Of a stretch of DNA of 64,000 nucleotides, positions 1,178-18,476 are shown piece after piece. The translations under genes were made by a program, and so were the position numbers. The stretch is from Plumapathes pennacea (lineage: Eukaryota > Cnidaria > Anthozoa > Antipatharia > Myriopathidae), in the NCBI GenBank assembly GCA_964036295.1, contig OZ038465.1:1699615-1763614 (forward strand). The letters are read 5' to 3'. The notes below the pieces were generated by a model, which was given only the letters and a program-made list of their open reading frames with translations, searched no databases and was not told where the DNA came from. Position 1 is the stretch's first letter, and each line of letters opens with the position of its first letter.

Positions 1178-2764
1178 ATGGATGAGGATAGAGCAAAAAA
1201 GGAGGCAGCACTGGAGGAGAAAATGAAGCTCATCAGGAAGAAAAATGAAGAGCACTTAAAAAGACTGAAGGAAATTGAGGAAGACAAGGCTAATGCAGAC
1301 ACGTATAGTGATCAGGTGGCCCATAAGAGTCCCAGAAACAACATGACTGGGGTAAGGAAGGAAAGCCCATCTGTGACTAAGCAGTTCCAAAGAGGCAGAG
1401 GTCGGCTACTGTCAAAAATGAGCCAAGAAACTTTGAGGGCAAAAGATTTGGAAGAAAAGAGAAAACAGAACATCAAGAGACAAGAAGAAGAACTAAAGAG
1501 AAGCAGTGTGGGTCAAAGTCCAGCATCCAGCTTTTTGGCAGATGACAGAAGGGTCGACATGGGCAAGACAACAAGACGGTCACCTCATTCCTATGGAGGG
1601 ACTCACTTTGATGGTGCTGTCAACAGGATGAGCAGAGATCGAAGTCACTTCAAGCTCTGGGGAAATAATCCTGAAATGTGTATGACTGGAAAGGAACGGC
1701 TCGAATACAGGGAGTGGAAGGAAGAAAGGAAAGAAATAGATGCCAGTAGGAAAGCAAGGCAAAAGAAGGGGGAACAGTGGTCTCGGGAGTGGGATCAAAA
1801 GAAAGAGTGGGACAAAAAAAGAGGAATGTGGCTGGATTCAAACAGTAGTAGAGTGAGGAGAAATGAGTCACCAAGAATAAGTGCAGAGGATAGCTGGGGA
1901 GAGGACACTTCTGAGAAAGTATGGGATGGAAAGAATAGGAGATGGGTGGATCCTAAGGAGGCAGTATCGTTTGAACCAGAGGAAGACTGGGGAAAAGCTG
2001 AGCAACAGGAAAAGAACCCCAGCTCAAGTGCAAGGAAAGAAAGGTACTCAAGTTCCTCAGAAGGCTCTGGAGATGGAAGAAGTCTGAAAACCTCACAGCA
2101 CCATGCAGGCAGCAAAAGCTGTGAGAACCCCGAACAGTCTGAAAGTAGAAAGTGTGTCAATGATTTAAGACTCAAAATTAAAAGCCCAAGAGAAAATCAG
2201 CCTCCTGTGCCAGAAGACAACACACAAGATGTTTCTAATAAAGGCAAAACTGGCTTGGGTGACAGTTCAGCTGCCAAAGGGGAAGATGTGCCAGCCAGTG
2301 CCAAACCACAAGGGGTGAAAGTCAGAAGACAGAGAGGCTCATCTGGCAAGGAACCTGTACCTAAAACCAAAGAATCTCAGAATGTAGAAAAAGAGGGCAT
2401 AATTCAAAAGGGAGAAGAGGAAAGGAATGAGGACGAGTTGGGAAAAGAGGTTAACAGAACAGATTATGAAGCTGATGAAACGGTGTTCATCCAAGACCAA
2501 AGAGCTCAAGAATGCAAGGGAGGTGATGAAGTTAAGGAAGCACAGGAAGATGATAACAGTAATAATACTCAGCTTGGAGATGATGCAGCAAGGAGAGAAG
2601 AAAATAAACAAGAACAGTCAGAGAAAAGAAAACAAGAAAGCTTTGACTTTGTGCCCATTTCACCTTTAGACAAAGAGGGGGTTCCTTTAGAATGGGGAGA
2701 TGCAGAAATTGATGAAGAGCAATTAGTGCTGGACACTGCTGAAATAAGAATGGTAACTCATTAA
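1178..2764 (+). CDS. CCDC9: Coiled-coil domain-containing protein 9 (CCDC9/CCDC9B family)
   Basis: One uninterrupted coding exon of 528 residues starting at ATG 1178 (MDEDRAKKEAALEEKMKLI). The open frame continues upstream to about 995, but that part is intron: a pyrimidine-rich acceptor ending TGATTAG lies at 1158, and an untranslated exon with a GTAAGT donor ends at 632. Order of parts: an N-terminal coiled coil (residues about 2-40); a basic linker with QRGRGR; the family motif SMTG-type block here as MTGKERLEYREWKEERKEID (about 170-190) followed by GEQWSREWD; then acidic low-complexity sequence; and a C-terminal EWGDAEID motif resembling the vertebrate DWGEEVE end. In vertebrates CCDC9 associates with the exon junction complex and RNA; that is family knowledge. 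AATAAA lies at 3431. Confidence 0.85.
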   Translation: MDEDRAKKEAALEEKMKLIRKKNEEHLKRLKEIEEDKANADTYSDQVAHKSPRNNMTGVRKESPSVTKQFQRGRGRLLSKMSQETLRAKDLEEKRKQNIKRQEEELKRSSVGQSPASSFLADDRRVDMGKTTRRSPHSYGGTHFDGAVNRMSRDRSHFKLWGNNPEMCMTGKERLEYREWKEERKEIDASRKARQKKGEQWSREWDQKKEWDKKRGMWLDSNSSRVRRNESPRISAEDSWGEDTSEKVWDGKNRRWVDPKEAVSFEPEEDWGKAEQQEKNPSSSARKERYSSSSEGSGDGRSLKTSQHHAGSKSCENPEQSESRKCVNDLRLKIKSPRENQPPVPEDNTQDVSNKGKTGLGDSSAAKGEDVPASAKPQGVKVRRQRGSSGKEPVPKTKESQNVEKEGIIQKGEEERNEDELGKEVNRTDYEADETVFIQDQRAQECKGGDEVKEAQEDDNSNNTQLGDDAARREENKQEQSEKRKQESFDFVPISPLDKEGVPLEWGDAEIDEEQLVLDTAEIRMVTH

Positions 2765-2831
2765 GCTAAATTGTTTAACATTTTAATAGTATACATGTAA
2801 TTTAGATGCAGAAGCAAAATTAGCCAAGCAA

Positions 2832-3066
2832 CCTGGGCCCGGTTCTTCATAAGAATCCAGGATTAACTAAATTCTTTCTCTCGACCTCTCTGCCAATAGA
2901 CTGCAGGGTTTTGTTCGAAGATAGATTTAAAAGCTTTTTCCAGATTAAAACGTATCAAGGAAATCGTTGTGGACGAAACCTTCACATTTTCAGGCATATA
3001 AATGACAAGAAAGTTTAGACCTAATCCAGGATTAGACTAATCATGCTTTGAAAAACCAGGTCCTGG
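2832..3066. mobile_element. MITE with about 40-bp imperfect terminal inverted repeats
   Basis: The segment opens with CCTGGGCCCGGTTCTTCATA and the motif AATCCAGGATTAA. It closes with the inverted version, AATCCAGGATTAG followed by TTTGAAAAACCAGGTCCTGG. The two ends are reverse complements with scattered mismatches, and no open frame lies between them. It sits in the 3' untranslated or downstream region of CCDC9. I could not define a target duplication. Confidence 0.6.
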
Positions 3067-4306
3067 GTGAGAGCCTCTGTGCATAAATGAAGCACTTTCC
3101 CTTGACAACCAAGGCACAAAGCAGTAGTAATAACTTTTGTCATTGTTGTACACCTTTCAGTCATCACCCTTGCACTGAAGTGTTCGTACATTCAGTGAAA
3201 TAATTAATACCTGATAAACATGCCATAAGGACCACTGTAATTTTATGCATACAGTGTCATGTATTTTATAATGGTTTTATTTTTAAAGTAGGCATTGTAC
3301 ATAGGTGAGTACCAGTAAATTATGAAAGATGTGGTACAGCATATTCAACACCCTTGAAAGGAAGTTGATCTTATGGTGATTTGTATAAAAGCAGCTTACC
3401 TGTTCATACAGACCTGAACATAATTTAAATAATAAAGAACATCCATGTAACCGAGGCTGCTTTTGCTTGAACATTATTTTGTAGTTTACAACTGCTCAGT
3501 CAAACTATCTATCAGCTGTTTCAGAAAGCCAGATACATACTGTACCATACCAAGAATTCTTTGGTCAATATATTTCAGCAGGGCAGTTGATACCAGTGTT
3601 TCTATACTGGAGGGGTAGCCCTGTATAAATATTTTATGGTAATATAATAATCAAAGCAAAGTGAACACACAAAGTAGTGTCATGGCCTGAAAGAGTTCTT
3701 TAAAATATGGACTGCCAAAAGTCCAGACCAGCCCTATGAATTATTTGTTTAACTTCATATTCTAAAACTTAACATTTCCAACTTATTTTGACATGTTCCA
3801 TAGTATTATATTTAAACTATGCCCCAAGAAATATACATAGCAGGATTACACACATAAGTGTCTGGTAAGTTACAGTGTTTATTATCCAGCAGTGTGCAAT
3901 ATGGATATATTTTGCACATTACTAAGGGGTTATTTTATACTAGTTACCAGCAATGTTCATGTTACTAGGGCCAAGGTACTGTATAACAATAGGGAATGTT
4001 CAGTTCTGCTCTTATTGCCACTGTGACTGAAGGGATTGAGACTCAACACATCTGTACAAATCCATGTTGATCACAAGTTCACACGTTTATTCAATATTAG
4101 ATCAAAGATACAAAAGTTTTAATTTTCCATACTCAAATTATTGCACAAGCAGACATTTCCACTGAAGCTTTCAAAACTAAGAGTACAGTCTTTACAGTTG
4201 TATCAACCAGATCAACAAACAGTTACAAAATTCTAGATTACATCACAATATAACATTATTGTTCTGTGTGATCTACTACACTGTAGATGTGGAAGACTGT
4301 CCTTCT
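3067..4306. other. CCDC9 3' UTR and intergenic sequence
   Basis: AT-rich sequence with no coding signal. An AATAAA at 3431-3436 could end the CCDC9 transcript. From the other strand, TTTATT at 4086-4091 (AATAAA on minus) is a likely polyadenylation signal for the glutaredoxin gene, about 220 nt past its stop. Confidence 0.4.
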
Positions 4307-5068
4307 TCAGTTTTGTACCATTTTTGCCAGCTCTCCACTGTTCTTAAGTGCATTGGTTTCATCTCCACCTCCAATACATTTTCCACCAATAAACACCCGA
4401 GGAACCTGCACAAAAGAATCAAGGGTTTTGATTAAACTTGAAACCAAAATACTGTATGGAATGGTGGTAAAGTGATGGCAGTATTGACATCTTGTTCATT
4501 TAAAATTGAGGAAGGCTGTGCTTGCAAACATGATGGGGAAAGTGAGGCACATTTTGCCCCCTCCTAAACCAAGGCAAACTTTTTGTGCCCCCTATCCATT
4601 CATACAGTATCACTAGCAACAGTCAAAAATTGGTCGTTGTTAAGGTTCAAATGTAAAAGTCTGATGTTGTCACACTTCGATATAGCATAAGTCTTGTTGA
4701 CACAGCAAAAAGAAAACATGACGCAGCAAATTTCTGACACGTTTAAACTCTAAATCAGAACAATCAATAATTCACCGAATTGTATCGAGCTAGTTTCAAT
4801 AACATACCGTCCTGGCGCCAGTCATTTCACGCAGAACATCCATTATGGCGTTGCTATCAAGATCGCTTCTTTCATCAAGTTCGATGAGAACAAATTCGGC
4901 ATTAACCTCCTTAAGGGCTTTCTTTGCCTTCGTGCAAAACGGACAGTAGCTCTTAGAGAATACTACCACTTTGTTAGCACCGATCTGCTGCTCTATAAAA
5001 GCTTTAGCTTCACCTTTTCCCATGTTGATGTTCGAACTCGTCGCGCCCATGTAAAGAGAACTGAACAA
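4307..5068 (-). CDS. Dithiol glutaredoxin, CPFC active site (Grx1/Grx2-like)
   Basis: Two coding exons: 4808-5068 and 4307-4405, joined in phase 0 at ...GART/VPRVFIGG. The product is 119 residues from ATG 5068, or 113 from ATG 5050. The thioredoxin-fold features are complete: a KVVVFSKSYCPFC active site (about residues 33-45), the cis-proline TVPRVF, and the GG-x-D/E motif GGKCIGGGDET that binds glutathione. Family function is GSH-dependent reduction of protein disulfides and mixed disulfides. Starting at 5050 gives MGATSSN, a match to the N-myristoylation pattern (Gly2, Ser6), so that start may direct membrane attachment. A second, related first exon lies 900 bp upstream (5946-6152). AATAAA on this strand is at 4086-4091. 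Confidence 0.88.
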
Positions 5069-5945
5069 ACTTCTAATTAATTCAACTGGTGCTCAATCCA
5101 GGCCCTCCCGGTTAAGAGACTATGATAGACCTGGGGACAAGGGTAAAAATCGCGTGCTCAGTTGATGTACTGCGCGCTTTTGGCTGTAAATAAAAATTTT
5201 CCCTCGTGTAGCTGTCGACCTTTGAAGAAAACATCGTCTCTTTAGCTGTCGGTCTAGACGATACAAATTTGCAGTCATATAATCAGGCCCCAATGTGGAC
5301 ATCAGGCACCCCATGAATAATAATACCGTTTCGAGTTTCCCTGAGGCAGTTTATCACTGTTTCCGAAAACAAACGGACGTCTTAGGTTAGCAGATCATTC
5401 GCGGTGACACACTTTTCTGCTCTTTGTACCATGTCATGCTGAAGCATGCATCCGGGTTTAAATGCGACATCAGATCCGAGCCAATGAACTCCTAACTTCT
5501 CTTCCATGCCAGGCAAACGATTCTTACATTTCATAAACACTTGATATTCAGTTTCTTATTCAAAATAATGCCAATAAAGGCGCAAAAGTTAGCCGAGACG
5601 ATCCAGACAATCATCAAGGTGTGCCGCGAGTCAAACGATCGAAGCGAATGAAAACGTCGCCAGCAACCGGTTAACCGAAAACTGATGGAGAAGGCACCAG
5701 CGCTGTTACTCCAGGCAGACGATTCAGTTATGAACCAGCATGTCCCGGTTTGATGAAAACCCCACTGATGACTAGTCAGAGGGCTCAGGAGCCAATATCT
5801 GAGCCCCGCGTCGATATCCAGCTGCCAGACTGCACGCACCTCACAGCTGGTCAAGATTCGTCTTCCGTGTTATTTAAATTAAAAAAGGCAAACCCGTTTT
5901 AAATTTCCGGATCTTTAGTGCTGCACTGATAGATGCTGTACATAC

Positions 5946-6152
5946 CGTTTTTGCACCGGTCAACTCTGCCAGAGCGTCGAGGATGGCTTGTCCATCTTCA
6001 CGCTTGTCGAGCTCGAACACGACATAGTCGTAATTTTCGGCTCCTACTTCCACGAGCGCTGCTTTTGCCTTCTTACTAAAAGGGCAGAAGGTCTTAGAGA
6101 AGACAACAATCTTGTGAGAGCTGATCTGCTCCTGTACAAAGGCGCTGGCCAT
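5946..6152 (-). CDS. Glutaredoxin alternative or duplicated first exon, CPFS active site
   Basis: An open exon of 69 residues begins at ATG 6152 (MASAFVQEQISSHKIVVFSK). It ends at a GTATGT donor right after ...LTGAKT, exactly the phase and position of the donor in the downstream glutaredoxin exon. The active site reads CPFS, so the resolving cysteine is Ser, making it monothiol in form. I searched 5100-5870 by eye for a second exon (VPRVFIGG-type) and found none. It therefore either splices to the exon at 4307-4405, as an alternative first exon of the same gene, or is an orphaned duplicate. A MITE insertion ends 15 bp upstream of the ATG. Confidence 0.65.
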
Positions 6153-6159
6153 CTTTAAG

Positions 6160-6416
6160 TTATGCACCCGGGGGGGAGGGGGGGGGGGGGGGGGGGAGTT
6201 GGGGTACTCCTCAAAATTTTGGGCCCTATTTCAGACCAAAATTTTCGATTTTCGACCCTATTTCAGACCGAAACAGTGCAATTTTTGACCCTATTTCAGA
6301 CCAAATATCCAAATATCCGATATTTCAGACTAAAATGCTGAAAATGATACCCTTTGGGGCGGCACATACCTATATGGCTCATATATAGGTCGAGTACCCT
6401 CCTCGGGGTTATGCAC
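6160..6416. mobile_element. Non-autonomous DNA transposon (MITE) with 8-bp target duplication
   Basis: The element spans 6168-6408 and is flanked on both sides by identical TTATGCAC (6160-6167 and 6409-6416). Its ends are imperfect inverted repeats of the type CCCCGAGGAGGGTACTC, with one end expanded into a long G run (about 6169-6196). The interior repeats the phrase CCCTATTTCAGACC three times. The 8-bp duplication is typical of hAT-type elements. No coding capacity. It lies in the 5' UTR or core promoter of the CPFS glutaredoxin exon. Confidence 0.8.
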
Positions 6417-6589
6417 AACTGCCATAATAATTCATTCGCACTCACTTTGTAATGTTTACTTGATTATCGGGATCATGGTAGGTTATGGGCCCAGCGTCTT
6501 TCGTACTTGTTCAAGCTCAGAAAAAGCACTTATTGTTTTTCTAGTTCATAGAATGCACCGGTGTTCGTGTTGGGACAAGCATCGGTTTC

Positions 6590-6840
6590 CCTCTCAATAT
6601 AATAGATGTTTAAACACCTTTCAAGTTCAGAACCAACACCGCCTAACAAGTTCAGTTTAAACACCGCTGAAGTTTAGTTTAAACACCGTGCAAGTTCATA
6701 TCAAACACCGACCAAGTTCAAAACAAACACCGTTCAAGTTCAGTTCGAATACCGCGGAACAAGTTCAGATCAAACACCGACCAAGTTAAAAAAAAACACC
6801 GCTCAAATTTAGTAAATACACCGATCAATGGAATTGTGCT
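6590..6840. repeat. Degenerate minisatellite, unit about 24 bp
   Basis: About nine tandem degenerate units built on CAAGTTCAGNTCAAACACCG. From about 6845 to 6930 the same motif appears in reverse (TGAACTT with GGTG), so the array has an inverted partner. Noncoding. Confidence 0.6.
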
Positions 6841-7131
6841 TGTTTTGAACTTGATACGTGATTGTACTGAACTTCATAGGTGATTGTTATGAATCTGAAC
6901 GGTGCTCTAACTGAAATAAACTTGGTCACGCGATCACTGATAAACGCTGTGCACAATGATCGCTGGCTCTTTTTGTCCCACATTCCTTGATTTTATACAT
7001 CGATCGAATCGATCTTCCAGAATACTGTAGTCGCCTGTTCAGCAACCTTCTGGTTCAACATTCAGGACACGATTGAGGTAATTTAGCGAACTTGAAATTT
7101 ACATCAGCTTGAGAATGCACCTGAATATAAG

Positions 7132-7492
7132 AGGGCCTGGATGGGATTCACTGTTAAGTGTTATGAATTTTTTACTGTAAGTGTTATGAAGCCAAATAAA
7201 TTAATGTTAAGTGTTATGTAAATAAATACAGTTAAGTGTTACAAGACTAGATATTAAATAAAACATGACAAGATGGCCTAGATGGGGTTTACTGCTAAGT
7301 GTTATGGGCCTGGATTTTTTACTGTTAAGTGTCAAGTGTTATGTAAATAAGTACAGTTAAGTGTTACAAGACTAGCTAGATATTAAATAAAACAAGGCAA
7401 GATGGCCTAGATGGGGTTTACTGCTAAGTGTTATGGGCCTGAATTTTTTACTGTTAAGTGTAATGCAACCCCCCCCCCCCCCCCCCAGCCCT
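7132..7492. mobile_element. MITE with poly-C end and an internal tandem duplication
   Basis: Starts AGGGCCTGGATGGG and ends in a run of about 17 C followed by AGCCCT, giving short inverted ends AGGGC(C/T). The flanks AATATAAG and CATATAAA may be a decayed 8-bp target duplication. The interior holds two copies of a roughly 150-bp unit with many TTACTGTTAAGTGTTATG motifs. It belongs to the same family as the shorter copy at 8328. Confidence 0.6.
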
Positions 7493-8319
7493 CATATAAA
7501 GCACCATGTTGCAACCATTTCACTGTTTTTCACAGTTGATTTGGCATATGACTCTGGCAAAATATGTTTGTGCAAAAACATTTCACTCTTCCTTGTAACC
7601 AACAAAACTTCTCTTCAGGGTTGCTTCACCCTGTACATACAGTTCAAAAGTTAAGTATAGACTTGACAGATCAAAAATATTGAACAGTTGCCATTTTTCT
7701 TGTTTAATCAGTCATTTCAATATCTCCTTCTGTTAACAAGAATACATCAGTATCTGTAAATATAAATAATTATGTCTACATCAACCTCTTCCCTGACTGC
7801 ATCTATAGTAGTCTATCCAGTTTTAATCTGTACATTTTCTTGCTTCTGATCCTGTTCTACCTGGTCATGTTGTCCATGCTATTTCTGCACCTGAACTAAA
7901 AGCTTCTGTAGAGAAACAAACAGAACCTTAGACCAACTGTATCTACAATATTCAGCACTCCCCACTACACATGTCGGCAGCCACAGAAATATTACACATG
8001 TCTAACATGTAACCTGGCAATCCTATTTGAGGGCATTTTAATTTTACATATCAAGAACCTGAGCATGAGATCTATAGAGTAAATCAAGATAGTCAATGAC
8101 TTTTGAGGCAGCTCTCACAAGTACACGACTATCGATCGATCATTGTTGACCACTATGTCAGCCAATATACAACACCCAGCCTGTAACTGATTGAAATCAA
8201 TATTGATTTCCTGGTCAGTTCCTATATATTTGATTGTACACATCAGGTCAGGCAATATATTTTGCAACAAAACTGAATCTTTCTCATTTAAGATTACTTT
8301 GATTCCCAATTCATTAGAA
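7493..8319. other. No recognisable gene
   Basis: AT-rich sequence. One minus-strand frame at 8115-8330 is open and looks protein-like (ILNEKDSVLLQNILPDLM) but has no Met start, clear splice sites or family match. Confidence 0.3.
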
Positions 8320-8446: not shown

Positions 8447-9211
8447 TGTGACCACAATATATTTACACATAATTTGCAAAAGCAAGTATTCATGCATGCA
8501 GCATTTAGTTGCAAATGAAAAGATTTCATGTTTAGTTTACAGTTGGGCAGAGAAAAATGGCAACACTTTCAGTATCACTATTATCTTAAAATCACTAAAT
8601 ATTTTTTATGCTGACATTCATTATTCTTTTTAAATATGCGGTTTTGTATTTATTTCACGATGTCTTGCGTTGTAAAATGGGCTATGTGCCACATCGGAAA
8701 ACGAAAAATTCCTAGACATCTCTGATTCTGGGTAGGAAAATAAATATTTTAAAGAGTTTCCTTGGAATATAAACTGTGAAAATTCGTCGACAGCGAACTG
8801 GCAGCTGAGGTCGACTTTATAATTTAAAAAATGATTAAGACATTATTGATGAACCTCGAAATAAAACCGCTTTTACAGTTCGTAAAAGAGCATACTTGAA
8901 TAAATCTGATAAATGTATATAGCATAAAACTATAATGCCGGCTCGTTGACCTTTGTTTCGTACGTATGAAAACGTCACGATCCGCAACATTTTTATCACC
9001 ACAAGGCGGTGTTATTGTTACAAACCCGTAATCGTTGAAATCAGCATGGTGGTTTGGATGCAAGCAAAACGCGGAAAACTTTAACTGTACGGAACCACGC
9101 GATATTTATGTATCAATTTTCAATTGATACTTCAATTTAACCCTCGAGCTTTGCGGCTCGTCATTCAACCGCATCTGAGTTTTCCATGCGAAGATATCCG
9201 TTAAAAATGAT
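8447..9211. other. Intergenic sequence and RD3 3' flank
   Basis: No coding signal or repeat structure that I can name. It contains the region downstream of the RD3 stop codon at 9212. Confidence 0.3.
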
Positions 9212-9790
9212 TTACACAGGCAACTCCGCAAGGGGAACGAAATCAGACATACTTTTAACACGTCTTGTATCACCGACCGTCGTTTCGTGTGATGTCGAAG
9301 GAGCTGGATAGACTTTGCTGGACGACTGGCTCTTCAAGTTCCTCAAGTTTGACATGCTCCTTGTGATCCAGTTCATCATGGTATCTCCCTCATTGTCGGG
9401 TTTTTCTGTCAAATATTTTTCAATAATAGTTCTCATTATTCGCGGCAGTTCGTCCGGCCGGCGCGCTATCCCATCGACTAACGCCCGAAACTGCGTGATT
9501 ATTTCACTGCAGTCTTTCGCTTCGACCCGGGATGCCAGACTCTCCAATGCTAGCCGCTCTATCTGGGGAATCTCGTAAGATTTTACAGGAGCCGTTGCAA
9601 GCCAGCTATAGTCGGCCAAGTTGCGTCTTTTCTTCGCTTCTTTATCCTGGTTACGAGAGAGACGTTCTACATCTTTGATTTGAGTTTCTAACTCCATCAT
9701 GAGCGCTTCACACACAAGAACTGAGTCCGATTTTGCAGGGGGGCCTTCATTTTTGTGAAAATTTAGGCCTAGTACAGATAAGGACACCAT
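9212..9790 (-). CDS. RD3-domain protein (retinal degeneration 3 family)
   Basis: Single-exon frame of 192 residues from ATG 9790 (MVSLSVLGLNFHKNEG). The open frame extends four codons further without an ATG. The RD3 family signature covers about residues 25-120: LVCEALMMELETQIKDVERL, a short basic linker, DYSWLATAPVKSYEIPQIERLALE, then a four-helix pattern with ITQFRALVD and RIMRTIIEKYL. Human RD3 has the matching ETLMMELTGQMREAERQQ and DYSWLAS blocks at the same spacing and is about 195 residues long. RD3 binds and inhibits retinal membrane guanylyl cyclases and aids their trafficking. In a cnidarian the likely role is control of a membrane guanylyl cyclase, which is inference. The tail is Ser-rich and ends LAELPV. 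Confidence 0.85.
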   Translation of the reverse strand: MVSLSVLGLNFHKNEGPPAKSDSVLVCEALMMELETQIKDVERLSRNQDKEAKKRRNLADYSWLATAPVKSYEIPQIERLALESLASRVEAKDCSEIITQFRALVDGIARRPDELPRIMRTIIEKYLTEKPDNEGDTMMNWITRSMSNLRNLKSQSSSKVYPAPSTSHETTVGDTRRVKSMSDFVPLAELPV

Positions 9791-9989
9791 CAAGAAAATC
9801 AAGACTTCTTCAGACAGCGACTAAAATACATCCGAAGGCCATAAATATCGAACATTTGTTGTCATGAAACAAAGGTTTCACGTCACGCACTCGGCACGCG
9901 CTAACCAATCAGCTGGAAGAACTCCCAGGCCTCTCTCTTTTTGCCCACTGATATTTAAAATACAATAATTTAGCACCTTTGTTGTATTA

Positions 9990-12339: not shown

Positions 12340-13890
12340 TAAATAAACCCCCCTCTCTATTAAGGCCCCCTTCTCATGTTACTAAAACGCGAAACAGCGA
12401 AACAACGAAACAGCTAGTTATTAACTAAAATTAACGGTAATAATACCGAGATTATTACAGGGAAACAACTAAAATTTACTGCAATAGCTAATACCTATAT
12501 ATGAAGGATGATTATTGAACCTATTGCTCAGATAAACAAGCCCGTTGTCATGTTGCGTCAAGTTGGCATCAATCTGTCTTTGAGCACCGGTATTTCCGGA
12601 GTGTTTTTTTAACACTCACTATTTTTTTTTTAAAGTAACGGCATCAAAGAACAGATTTCCAATCACACACACTGAATACTCTAATGGTAAAATAGCTTAA
12701 ACTTTTGACGAACACTAGAATGAAGGGACTATATTTAATTGAGTCATTTCCAAGTGGGATCATACCATCACGCCCCACAGTGCCACTATCTGAAAACAGA
12801 GTTTAAGGCTATGTTTAAAACCTGGAATCGGGAACCCGGGAACAGGGAACGGGGAACCGGGAACCCGGGAACCGGGAACCGGGCTCCGATAAAGAAAAAA
12901 ATTGCATCTAAAGGTCCAAGAAGCACGCTTGTTTAGCAAATAATAAAATTATAGGCTGCTTTGTTTCTCGCGCACGGAGTTTGAATCATACATAAAAAGC
13001 TGATCTCCTCACCTTGAAGATGTCGTCCCCCTTTCGTGATCTACTTCATTGTCTCTAAGGATTAAAAATATCTTCAGTGAGTAAAAGTATACTGTGGACG
13101 ACTCAAAAGGATGAATATTTCTTAGCTTACCCTTCACTTTGCTCCGACATCGTGCACCATGCGATGATGAAACGAAAGACAGGCGTAATGAGCGGTCACT
13201 GGCTTCGCGATTCCCGGTTCCCGGTTCCCAGGTTCCCGGTTCCCAGGTTCCCGGTTCCCAGGTTCCCGGTTCCCCGTTCCCGGTTCCCGGGTTCCCGGGT
13301 TCCCGGGTTCCCGGGTTCCCGGGTTCCCGGGTTCCCGGTTCCCCGTTCCCGGGTTCCGGTTCCAGGTTTTAAACATAGCCCAGAGTTTAATTATCACCAA
13401 CGGTTGCGGTTCCGTGGGCTAGGGGTTTCCGTACGCCGTGAAGAATGTTCAAATCCCTTAGTTTCACGACAAGATCCCAGATGGATTTGACTCGTCATAC
13501 AACAATACCTGGGGCTGGATTGAGTTTCTCTGGAGCCATTTTATCATTAGAGTATTCTGTTCTTTGATGCTGTTTTAACTAAAAAGAATGAATGAGTTAC
13601 AACACTCCGGAAATACCGGAAATACCAGAGCTCAAAGACAGATGACAACGGGCTTGTTTATTTGTATAGGTATTAGTTATTGCAGTAAATTTTAGTTAAG
13701 AATTCGTTGTTCCCCGTAATAATCTCGGTATTAGTTATTACCGTTAATTTCAGTTAATAATTAGCTGTTTCGCTGTTTCGTTGTTTCGCTGTTTCGCGTT
13801 TTAGTAGCACCCCTTCTCAAGGGCAAAAGAAGAAATAAGCCCCCTCCCCCCCCCCCCCTCCCCAGGGGGGAGGGGCTTAATAGAGCTTTT
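12340..13890. repeat. Large palindromic (foldback) repeat with GGTTCCC minisatellite arms
   Basis: Left arm about 12345-12885 and right arm about 13205-13885 are inverted copies with indels. Matching landmarks are CTCTATTAAG at both outer ends, GCGAAACAGCGAAAC, GTAATAATCTCGG, AACACTCCGGAAATACCGG, and TTTAAAACCTGGAA next to the centre. The inner end of each arm is a GGGAACCCGGGAACCGG minisatellite: short on the left at about 12825-12885, longer on the right at 13208-13370. A roughly 320-bp unique spacer separates the arms. No transposase. The outer right end has a C/G-rich hairpin at about 13842-13876. Confidence 0.65.
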
Positions 13891-14261
13891 ATACGGTAAT
13901 CCTTTACTGCGCACTCAATTGCCGCAAAATATGTGTTTCAGTTCAGTCTTTATATCGCTTTTCAAAACAGAGTAGGCTATCGGGTTCAGAGCAGAGTTCA
14001 GAATGTACAGGACTGCGGAAACAATCAACAGATAGCGTGGCGGATTACACAATTCAACCATGACACAGAAACCCAGATAAGATCCAACCGAATAGCACAC
14101 TACAAACGAACCCACAACGGCGCCTGCAATCACCGCGGAAGAAGTTGTCTTGGCTGTGCTGTTGTTCACTGTGGTGACTGCTCCTGATTCCTGAGGCTGA
14201 TTAAAGTTTAACTGAGCCGCGATGGCAGTCCTCTCTCTTGAAAGTTTTCGAGCTATGTAGA

Positions 14262-17200
14262 TCATGTGACCGGTTGTTACGAAAACTAAGACCCATGAAA
14301 ACGAAGACCTAAGACCTAAGACCTAAGACCCAAAAACGAAGACCCCCCTAAAACTCTCGTAAGACGGCTCATAGGAGCCCGCGCTGTGTTCTGTTACTTT
14401 GTGCGAGTGTCTGTTTGATTCCACGTGCGTTTCAACGGGGGGTCTTAGTTTTCGTAATAACCCCTTCGTTTTACGAAAACTAAGACCCTATCACAAATTA
14501 GCCGTAACAAGCATAACTGCTTCCGTGCTGCGACCAGAGCGAACAGTCAAACGAATAAAGTCAAGCGGAGTTGTCTGTTTGATTCTACGTGCGTTTTAAG
14601 AGGGGGTCTTAGTTTTCGTAATAACCCCTTCGTTTTACGAAAACTAAGACCCTATCACAAATTAGCCGTAACAAGCACATCTGCCTCCGTGTTGCGACCA
14701 GGGTGAACAGTGAAACGAATAAAGTCAAACGGAGGTGTCTGTTTGATTCCACGTGCGTTTTAAGAGGGGGTCTTAGCTTTCGTAATAACCCCTTCGTTTT
14801 ACGAAAACTAAGACCCTATCACAAATTAGCCGTAACAAGCACATCTGCCTCCGTGTTGCGACCAGGGTGAACAGTGAAACGAATAAAGTCAAACAGAGGT
14901 GTCTGTTTGATTCCACGTGCGTTTTAAGAGGGGGTCTTAGTTTTCGTAATAACCCCTTCGTTTTACGAAAACTAAGACCCTATCACAAATTAGTCGTAAC
15001 AAGCATATCTGCTTCTTTGCTGCGACCGAGGCGAACAGTGAAACGAATAAAGCCAAACGGAGGTGTCTGTTTGGTTCAAAGTGCGTTTCAAGAGGGGGTC
15101 TTAGTTTTCGTAATAACCCCTTCGTTTTACGAAAACTAAGACCCTATCACAAATTAGCCGTAACAAGCACATCTGCCTCCGTGTTGCGACCGAGGCGAAC
15201 AGTGAAACGAATAAAGTCAAACGGAGGTGTCTGTTTGGTTCTACGTGCGTTTTAAGAGGGGGTCTTAGTTTTCGTAATAGCCCCTTCGTTTTACGAAAAC
15301 TAAGACCCTATCACAACTTTGCCATAACAAGCACATCTAGACAAGACCCCAATAGGTTGGTACGAATAACAAGCATATTTGCGGTCAGAAGTGCGAGGAA
15401 GTATAATTGCATGCATTATCAATTTAATTAAACGAAGAAATGTCGCACATTCCTGCGACATTCGCACCTTTGACAGATGCAAAAGAGTAAAGAAGTCAGG
15501 AGTAATAAAAATTAGCGTGTGGTCATTCTGATTTCGTAAATGACTTTTGATATTTTAGCTTACTATTTCATTTGCTTAATGATAAAAAATAAATAAAAAC
15601 AGTAAAGGTATTTCGATAACTGTCAGTTGTCCAAATCGAGAAGCCTTTTAAACCGGAAGTTGACATCATCAATCGGACAAAAAGAAAATCTCACGCTCCT
15701 GGGGTTCGCGTCGCACATACAAAATTTGCATGTTTAGTTCCACACTATACTCTTCGCAATGTGACCTGATAGAGCAAATATGTCTTCCAAGTTTCCAACT
15801 TTGAAGCCATCTACGGCACCAGACGCGCTAGGATCCCTGTTGGGCGCAAATGTTCCCTTATTCAACTGGACGGAGCTGTTCGAAAAAGAAGATCGTAGTA
15901 TAAATAGAAAAAGAAGATCCCATTGGTCAAGGCACGTTCGGCTCTGTGTTTGTTGCGAAAAGAGGAAGCTGTGAGGGAGAGAAGGTTGTCATTAAGAAAA
16001 TTTTGAGCAAGGAGACGTACGAGCAATGCCTTTTTCTCAGGGATTTTTAAAAGTTTCTCTTTTTTTGGTTTTCAAATTTGAAATATATGAACTCTAAACA
16101 TTATGCAGAGAACTTTTTAAATTGCTGTCTTATGAAGCGGTGCCCCAAGGAAACAATACTTTGTAAGCTTTTATTCACCATTGACAAGTGTTAATTGCTA
16201 TAAGATTGAGGTATTCTCTACAATGTCACAATTTATGTTCTTTCGATTCTTTCGAGCCTGTAACCTGTTTTTCGCCATAATGTATAAATCGTAAATCAAA
16301 ATATTGTATCACATTCCATAACAATGCCAATTATGCTGTTATTGATGAATATACGTGATTTTACAATGAATGAGGCTTCCTGTCTGGTTACGTATTTACG
16401 AACTCCCAGTACTTCGGACGTCACCGTAGACTAAAACATCCGCTAAACTGTTCTGTTGAAACGCACTTAGAGGAAGAAATACAGCACAGCCTCCCATCAA
16501 TATTACATATGTTTATTATGGCTAAATTGTGGTAGGGTCTTAGTTTTCGTAAAAGGAAGGGGATATTACGAAAACTAAGACCCCCTCTTGAAACGCACGT
16601 GGAATCAAACAGACACCTCCGTTTGACTTTATTCGTTTCACTGTTCGCCTCGGTCGCAACAAAGAAGCAGATATGCTTGTTACGACTAATTTGTGATAGG
16701 GTCTTAGTTTTCGTAAAACGAAGGGGTTATTACGAAAACTAAGACCCCCCGTTAAAACGCACGTGGAATCAAACAGACACCTCTGTTTGACTTTATTCGT
16801 TTCACTGTTCACCCTGGTCGCAACACGGAGGCAGATGTGCTTGTTACGGCTAATTTGTGATAGGGTCTTAGTTTTCGTAAAACGAAGGGGTTATTACGAA
16901 AACTAAGACCCCCCGTTAAAACGCACGTGGAATCAAACAGACACCTCTGTTTGACTTTATTTGTTTCACTGTTCACCCTGGTCGCAACACGGAGGCAGAT
17001 GTGCTTGTTACGGCTAATTTGTGATAGGGTCTTAGTTTTCGTAAAACGAAGGGGTTATTACGAAAACTAAGACCCCCCGTTAAAACGCACGTGGAATCAA
17101 ACAGACACCTCTGTTTGACTTTATTTGTTTCACTGTTCACCCTGGTCGCAACACGGAGGCAGATGTGCTTGTTACGGCTAATTTGTGATAGGGTCTTAGT

Positions 17201-17909
17201 TTTCGTAAAACGAAGGGGTTATTACGAAAACTAAGACCCCCCGTTAAAACGCACGTGGAATCAAACAGACACCTCTGTTTGACTTTATTTGTTTCACTGT
17301 TCACCCTGGTCGCAACACGGAGGCAGATGTGCTTGTTACGGCTAATTTGTGATAGGGTCTTAGTTTTCGTAAAACGAAGGGGTTATCACGAAAACTAAGA
17401 CCCCCTCTTAAAACGCACGTGGAATCAAACAGACACCTCCGTTTGACTTTATTCGTTTCACTGTTCACCCTGGTCGCAACACGGAGGCAGATGTGCTTGT
17501 TACGGCTAATTTGTGATAGGGTCTTAGTTTTCGTAAAACGAAGGGGTTATTACGAAAACTAAGACCCCCTCTTAAAACGCACGTAGAATCAAACAGACAA
17601 CTCCGCTTGACTTTATTCGTTTGACTGTTCGCTCTGGTCGCAGCACGGAAGCAGTTATGCTTGTTACGGCTAATTTGTGATAGGGTCTTAGTTTTCGTAA
17701 AACGAAGGGGCTATTACGAAAACTAAGACCCCCCGTTAAAACGCACGTGGAATCAAACAGACACTCGCACAAAGTAACAGAACACAGCGCGGGCTCCTAT
17801 GAGCCGTCTTACGAGAGTTTTAGGGGGGTCTTCGTTTTTGGGTCTTAGGTCTTAGGTCTTAGGTCTTCGTTTTCATGGGTCTTAGTTTTCGTAACAACCT
17901 CATGTGACC
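14262..17909. mobile_element. Foldback (Mutator-like) element with 164-bp arm repeats
   Basis: 3,628-bp element (14272-17899) with inverted ends beginning GGTTGTTACGAAAACTAAG. It is flanked by an exact 10-bp target duplication TCATGTGACC (14262-14271, 17900-17909). The left arm (to about 15330) has six and the right arm (from about 16520) eight tandem units of exactly 164 bp, in opposite orientation. Each unit contains a 17-bp palindrome matching the element terminus. The centre (15330-16520) is AT-rich and carries a kinase gene fragment. No transposase is present. A 9-11 bp duplication plus long repetitive arms fits Mutator-like foldback elements. Confidence 0.85.
15780..16050 (+). pseudogene. 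Captured protein-kinase N-lobe fragment inside the foldback element
   Basis: From ATG 15780 the frame reads MSSKFPTLKPSTAPD and continues to FNWTELFEKED. A 25-bp insertion (a repeat of GAAAAAGAAGATC plus 12 bp, about 15894-15919) then shifts the frame. After it the next frame reads DPIGQGTFGSVFVAKRG and VVIKKIL, a glycine-rich loop and a beta-3 Lys strand, stopping at TAA 16050. This is the 5' end of a kinase gene, perhaps with some upstream sequence, now broken and truncated. Confidence 0.7.
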
Positions 17910-18476
17910 AGTGGCGAGAGAGAGGAAGACAGAGGGAAAGACGATAAATATGACCGCAAAAACCACAGAAAGCACCTTCCATGTCTTCCTGAAAGATGTA
18001 TAGCCGCCTAACAGTTCTATGGGCAGTGAAATAAAGAACCAAACGAGTGCACAAAACCACGCTGATGAGATCACGAGGAGAACTCGCTTCGTGCTCATGA
18101 GTTCGTTGTATCTCAAGGACCACACGACGGAGATGTAGCGGTCTGCTACCAAACAACACAAGTTAGTTATCGATGCAGAGACGCACACAAAGTAAACGTA
18201 CGCAACTGCTCTGTACTGAGGACAAGTTATATCACCAGGTTCACAAAGGACCGAATGCGGAATGGAACTCAGCCCAACACTAAAATCGGCCACGGCAAGC
18301 GACAGGATAAACCAGTTGGCGGTGTTGTGAAGTTGTGGTCGTCCGATGATAACGTAGCACACGATACCATTTGTGACCACTGCAAAGACAGCCACAACAC
18401 AAGAGACGATCCTAAAGCTGAGAAACTCCATTATTGCTGTTCTGGGTCGAGGATTGGTTACATTGTCACATGACAT

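Follow-up and report, generated by a model that had tools for sequence, protein, structure and literature searches.

A receptor gene very probably broken by a recent MULE-type foldback insertion in Plumapathes pennacea, and the kinase, VTD-like and transposase genes of its long relatives

A 64,000-nucleotide stretch of the Plumapathes pennacea genome (contig C4, positions 1699615-1763614, in a 290-Mb genome of 24 contigs; the whole stretch is called the window below) contains a class A G-protein-coupled receptor (GPCR) gene whose halves lie on either side of a non-autonomous foldback element of the MULE family. The element is flanked by two copies of a 10-bp target site duplication (TSD), and its orientation was taken from a kinase remnant in its interior. 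The features of the locus, in window coordinates, are as follows.

13915..14271, minus strand: C-terminal half of the GPCR (third intracellular loop, transmembrane segments (TM) 6-7, NPIAY motif and stop), placed by Pfam, paralogs and the joined frame
14262..14271, no strand: left copy of the TSD, TCATGTGACC, from the sequence
14272..17899, plus strand: the non-autonomous MULE-family foldback element, 3,628 bp
14272..14406, plus strand: left outer terminal inverted repeat, by end comparison
14407..15338, plus strand: left subterminal array, 5.7 copies of a 164-bp unit
15780..16043, plus strand: frameshifted 5' kinase remnant, covering the kinase open reading frame (ORF) of a long copy on contig C9 from its first Met to around residue 85, with the glycine loop and the region of the catalytic Lys
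15895..15919, plus strand: 25-bp insertion with partial duplication inside the kinase remnant, common to copies on contigs C1 and C2 and absent from the C9 copy
16042..16043, no strand: internal deletion junction, joining C9 element positions 1911 and 8505, with most of the kinase ORF and all of the VTD-like and transposase ORFs gone
16044..16506, plus strand: right internal remnant, matching C9 element positions 8505-8992, downstream of the C9 transposase stop
16516..17764, minus strand: right subterminal array, 7.6 copies of the 164-bp unit
17765..17899, minus strand: right outer terminal inverted repeat, by end comparison
17900..17909, no strand: right copy of the TSD, TCATGTGACC, from the sequence
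17900..18431, minus strand: N-terminal half of the GPCR (class A, TM1-5), with the start Met at 18431 by match to paralogs

An earlier note on this DNA had described a class A GPCR split in frame into TM1-5 and TM6-7 by a 3.6-kb element between exact 10-bp duplications, with no other lesion, and this description was borne out throughout. The Pfam profile 7tm_1 matched the N-terminal half at profile positions 2-122 of 260 (E 2.1e-19) and the C-terminal half at positions 166-260 of 260 (E 4.3e-5, below the curated cut-off). Once a single TSD copy was kept between the joined flanks, they read as a 292-aa open frame starting at MEFLS, with neither stop nor frameshift and with the GPCR motifs DRY and NPIAY. 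The break falls directly after TM5, at the boundary with the third intracellular loop, and the minus-strand frame runs into the element and meets a stop after about 13 codons. The two copies of the TSD are identical over all 10 bp, for which the chance at one site is about 1e-6 (4^-10).

Paralogs of the receptor gave 10 matches with 83-94% DNA identity in three stretches of contig C3 (2.283-2.318 Mb; L022, L023 and L024). The element is missing from all 10, each of which spans the insertion point (one stops 32 bases beyond it), and in 6 the open frame reaches 293 aa or more. Comparison of the window GPCR with eight of these matches (two were left out for short or deleted frames) gave dN/dS values of 0.45-0.68, within the range of 0.25-0.82 among the paralogs themselves, where one near-identical pair yielded no value; neither the open frame nor these ratios gave any sign of a long pseudogene history. 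The C3 cluster has a single orientation and includes two members that are 99.7% identical in protein, the window gene being an outlying member on another contig. Downstream of the 3' end of the window gene, at 13211-13368, lie about 21 copies of tandem TTCCCGG-type units with a 7-bp period.

The arms of the element form 1,067-bp inverted repeats that are 96% complementary and consist of tandem 164-bp units, as in foldback elements, and the two ends show 2 differences within their first 300 positions. With the outer 129 bases as query, at least 41 matches were found in the genome (the best 40 of 252 candidates were scored). Exact 10-bp TSDs were found by script in 8 of 11 family copies, the window copy included. 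This count covered the window and loci L009-L032, L085 and L086 and required both element ends within one stretch; one-ended copies were left out, and a further row from an inner mispairing in L025 was dropped. The duplication at L085 is 10 bp long with one mismatch, and the script found no TSD at L015 or L016, whose flanks are identical to each other.

Two sister copies, on C1 (L009) and C2 (L010), have the same internal deletion as the window element and the same 25-bp insertion, a feature on which the earlier note is silent. The window copy shows 6 differences from the C1 copy in the first 3,115 positions, with 20 more where the repeat number shifts by one unit, and 4 differences from the C2 copy in 2,099 positions; within these first 2,099 positions the window copy alone has three of the differences, and the final 800 bases are identical in the three copies. 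In the C2 copy a second insertion, about 3.0 kb long and with a longest open frame of about 125 aa, lies near element position 2100. Judged from these sequences the window insertion is recent, and it is plausibly polymorphic, one assembly having been compared. That the sister copies are almost identical points to recent activity, and the broken GPCR offers a natural marker.

The origin of the kinase piece was apparent from the long C9 copy, which measures 9,892 bp, has the same ends as the window element except for the outermost four bases on one side, and holds 6.6 kb more in its middle. Three ORFs, all in the same direction, were read in it from stop to stop (element coordinates).

1658-2929: kinase ORF, 423 aa, with a full protein kinase domain
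3975-4832: VTD-like ORF, 285 aa
5557-8394: transposase ORF, 945 aa

The window element corresponds to C9 positions 5-1911 and 8505-9892 (95.8-96.6% identity); its left array is one repeat unit shorter and its right array three units longer, and it has the 25-bp insertion. Because the window element is thus the C9 element without its middle, what it retains of the kinase is the 5' end of a gene native to the element. Internal deletions in other copies have breakpoints of their own (2270 to 8694 on C7, 1590 to 6999 on C12, and 1576 to 8005 and more on C4 at 6.83 Mb). The note's view of a recent gene-breaking foldback insertion therefore stood, given the exact TSD, the element-free paralogs, the open halves and sister copies that differ by about 0.2%; a kinase fragment is indeed present, but the reading of it as something carried needs revision, since the whole kinase is a gene of the C9 copy with the same ends. 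Capture of the fragment from the host was dropped as a candidate after the long C9 copy had been read.

At E <= 0.001, a search of 5.8 billion database proteins gave 49 relatives of the C9 transposase, 46 of which were aligned with three sequences from the present genome (n = 49). The Pfam profile MULE was matched by 26 of the 49 aligned sequences at E <= 0.01 (best 2.3e-6) and SWIM by 15 at the same threshold, while NCBIfam gave a weak IS256 match (E 0.0074). Three acidic residues, presumably the catalytic D, D and E of MULE transposases, were present in 49/49, 49/49 and 47/47 non-gap rows, respectively, and the four Cys/His positions of a SWIM-like finger in 41/44, 43/43, 41/42 and 41/42. 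The exact 10-bp TSDs in 8 of 11 copies and the terminal inverted repeats both fit the MULEs, whose TSDs measure about 8-11 bp; lengths of 8, 9 and 10 bp appear for MULEs in the table of PMC6446971.

The first ORF has the fold of eukaryotic protein kinases together with the catalytic Lys, HRD and DFG, and the related locus L029 matched only generic kinases in NCBIfam. For the second, a papain-like VTD fold was predicted and recovered in a Foldseek search, and both VTD motifs (Cys and Asp-x-His) are present in the C9 sequence; an ovarian-tumour (OTU) domain, prompted by a cnidarian MULE that has one, was set aside because both the Asp-x-His motif and the fold search pointed to VTD. In the kinase-VTD alignment, for which 25 of 37 close kinase-VTD proteins were used, the catalytic residues of both enzymes were nearly invariant across 26 sequences with 32-53% identity to the first, the VTD signature being found in 26/26 (Cys), 22/23 (Asp) and 24/24 (His) non-gap rows. 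Between the kinases of C9 and C11, 35% of 328 residues differ, and dN/dS is 0.127 (dS saturated). A viral origin was also considered and rejected on two scans of viral contigs, which covered the kinase and the transposase: the kinase matches had 21-48% identity (49 loci), and no relative of the transposase was found.

Linkage of the three genes was counted from 76 of 100 kinase rows (at least 41 bits), all 52 transposase rows and all 16 VTD rows, with only the best candidates scored. A kinase match lay within 10 kb on the same strand at 11 of 12 VTD loci, and a transposase match at 5 of 12, relative to a chance of about 0.0013 that a random locus has a transposase match nearby. Kinase matches were found within 10 kb of 7 of 39 transposase loci, and a transposase or VTD match within 10 kb of 13 of 66 kinase loci (11 of 25 at 100 bits or more). 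All three ORF types occur at three diverged long loci (C9, C1:10.26M and C3:7.57M), the transposases of which are 46-53% identical. A distant database homologue, P0049 (1,321 aa, 28% identical to the C9 transposase), holds the C-terminal half of a kinase, a VTD-like stretch, MULE and SWIM in one chain, the MULE and SWIM matches being below the Pfam cut-offs; a search with P0049 for further fused proteins returned P0049 alone. Two homologues bear cnidarian names, Porites evermanni and Actinostola. In the Actinostola sp. predicted protein (P0069) the kinase-VTD part is joined to PF13843, a piggyBac-type transposase domain, perhaps by nested insertion or as a gene-model chimera. In another region, G000:C3:14110891-15946160, lie 19 kinase-like matches, each with an open frame of 273-282 aa and 29-35% identity to the element kinase, together with L015 and L016 and their identical outer flanks, which suggests an amplified segment.

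The locus is thus very probably best explained by the recent insertion of a MULE foldback element into an open GPCR gene, the element being an internal deletion of a kinase-VTD-transposase element and its kinase piece a native stump. In the long element the ORFs for a protein kinase, a predicted deubiquitinase domain of the VTD type and a MULE-type transposase with a SWIM-like zinc finger all face the same way, and the three C9 ORFs may act as one gene or polyprotein. Internal deletion would have turned such an element into the non-autonomous foldback form; long copies would supply transposase, and short copies with intact ends probably moved in trans. Insertion at the boundary of TM5 and the third intracellular loop would have produced the 10-bp target duplication and a truncated receptor, the function of which would presumably be lost.

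Three other accounts of the locus were weighed against this one. The receptor might still be expressed if the insertion were spliced out or read through, as the two open halves and a dN/dS within the range among the paralogs would allow; however, open halves are expected even in the absence of function because the insertion is so young, and the stop some 13 codons into the element also speaks against this account, which we regard as improbable. Near-identical sister copies can mislead assemblers, so that the repeat could have been placed inside the GPCR by an assembly artefact, but the exact TSD has the length found in most family copies, and the window copy has private differences and its own repeat number, which leaves an artefact scarcely credible. 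Plant Pack-MULEs capture gene pieces, and an element that had taken up part of a host gene for a kinase in their manner would account for the window copy, which taken alone has just a kinase fragment; sequence capture is known for MULEs (PMC8277862). Set against this, the complete kinase is in place within the long C9 copy, the kinase, VTD and in part the transposase are linked in relatives at 40-65% aa identity, and full-domain kinase matches outside the family in the same genome are 27-36% identical. The cargo of a Pack-MULE comes from a host gene, and the kinase here belongs to the long element, making capture very improbable.

Concerning the gene set itself, we lean towards the view that cnidarian MULEs encode a kinase fused to a viral-tegument-like deubiquitinase, beside the transposase or in one chain with it, that the association is old, and that these phosphorylation and ubiquitin-editing enzymes protect or control the transposase or disarm host control. 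Both enzymes may have been retained for a benefit to the element, such as phosphorylation or stabilisation of its transposase or the disarming of host control. A number of observations weigh against this view or its parts. The C9 transposase itself matches Pfam MULE weakly (E 0.002, below the curated cut-off), and one end of the C9 element is damaged, its TSD being a 9-bp match read by eye in a copy that spans two sequence stretches. AvrPphB, which is not a VTD, ranked second in Foldseek (2.1e-4); Pfam Herpes_teg_N was matched by 2 of 25 VTD sequences without significance (best E 0.09), and a PDB profile search with a three-sequence VTD alignment listed no VTD chain or other meaningful match. 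Of the 66 kinase loci 53, and of the 39 transposase loci 32, had no tested partner within 10 kb, many of these probably being fragments or ordinary kinases. The kinase and VTD share a single ORF in L029 and L031, but each has its own in C9, L030 and L032. Three further points also favour the possibility that the kinase and VTD are passengers of an ancestral MULE, retained with no part in transposition: the roughly 3.6-4.5 kb read upstream of the transposases at C2:22.008M, C10:11.176M and C1:31.716M gave neither a kinase nor a VTD match; NFG replaces DFG in the kinase at L029:1271-3034, which may be inactive; and the closest kinase copies compared, on C11 and C4, have a dN/dS of 0.63 (dS 0.05), so that some kinase copies decay. 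Against passenger status stand the near-invariance of the catalytic residues of both enzymes, the low dN/dS between the C9 and C11 kinases, and the single chain of P0049, and we consider it unlikely. On the sequence record the kinase-VTD pair is one that has been kept long in some lineages and is decaying in some copies.

The insertion event is of an ordinary kind, and the gene set of the transposon is the more interesting part. A kinase fragment inside a transposon need not represent a captured host gene. A eukaryotic DNA transposon with a protein kinase of its own is, to our knowledge, unusual, and no report of a MULE-type element with a kinase-VTD-transposase set was found in full-text searches of one open library. 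Together, the kinase and a domain akin to the tegument deubiquitinases of herpesviruses provide a testable case in which a transposon may edit host signalling.

One known system for comparison is MuDR-6_HM, in which HM presumably stands for Hydra. Like the present family, it is a cnidarian MULE with a deubiquitinase-type accessory domain, but that domain is OTU instead of VTD and its table row lists no kinase (PMC6446971). Features in the same table of MULE groups include OTU, SET, FAR1, PMD, FLYWCH and others. The MULE/Mutator superfamily, including the foldback element Tm1 of root-knot nematodes (PMC3169594), resembles the present family in several ways: the long inverted repeats are composite and contain tandem units, the TSDs measure about 9-10 bp, the transposase is of MULE type and has a SWIM-like finger, and many copies are internally deleted, whereas the present element adds a protein kinase and a VTD-like domain to the transposase; the word 'kinase' is absent from the main text of both PMC6446971 and PMC3169594. 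Pack-MULEs (PMC8277862) are alike in being MULEs with a piece of a coding gene, and unlike in that the present piece comes from the element's own gene set. The VTD deubiquitinases encoded by Helitrons (PMC9741609) share the predicted fold, the Cys and Asp-x-His signature and the location in a transposon, and the same source describes VTD domains fused to transposon-associated domains in several corals and sea anemones; its main text contains none of the words 'kinase', 'MULE' and 'Mutator'. The present VTD, in contrast, sits in a MULE-type element, C-terminal to a kinase. It would add MULEs to the Helitrons as carriers of these domains and is thereby relevant to the proposal made there that VTDs spread via transposons (PMC9741609).
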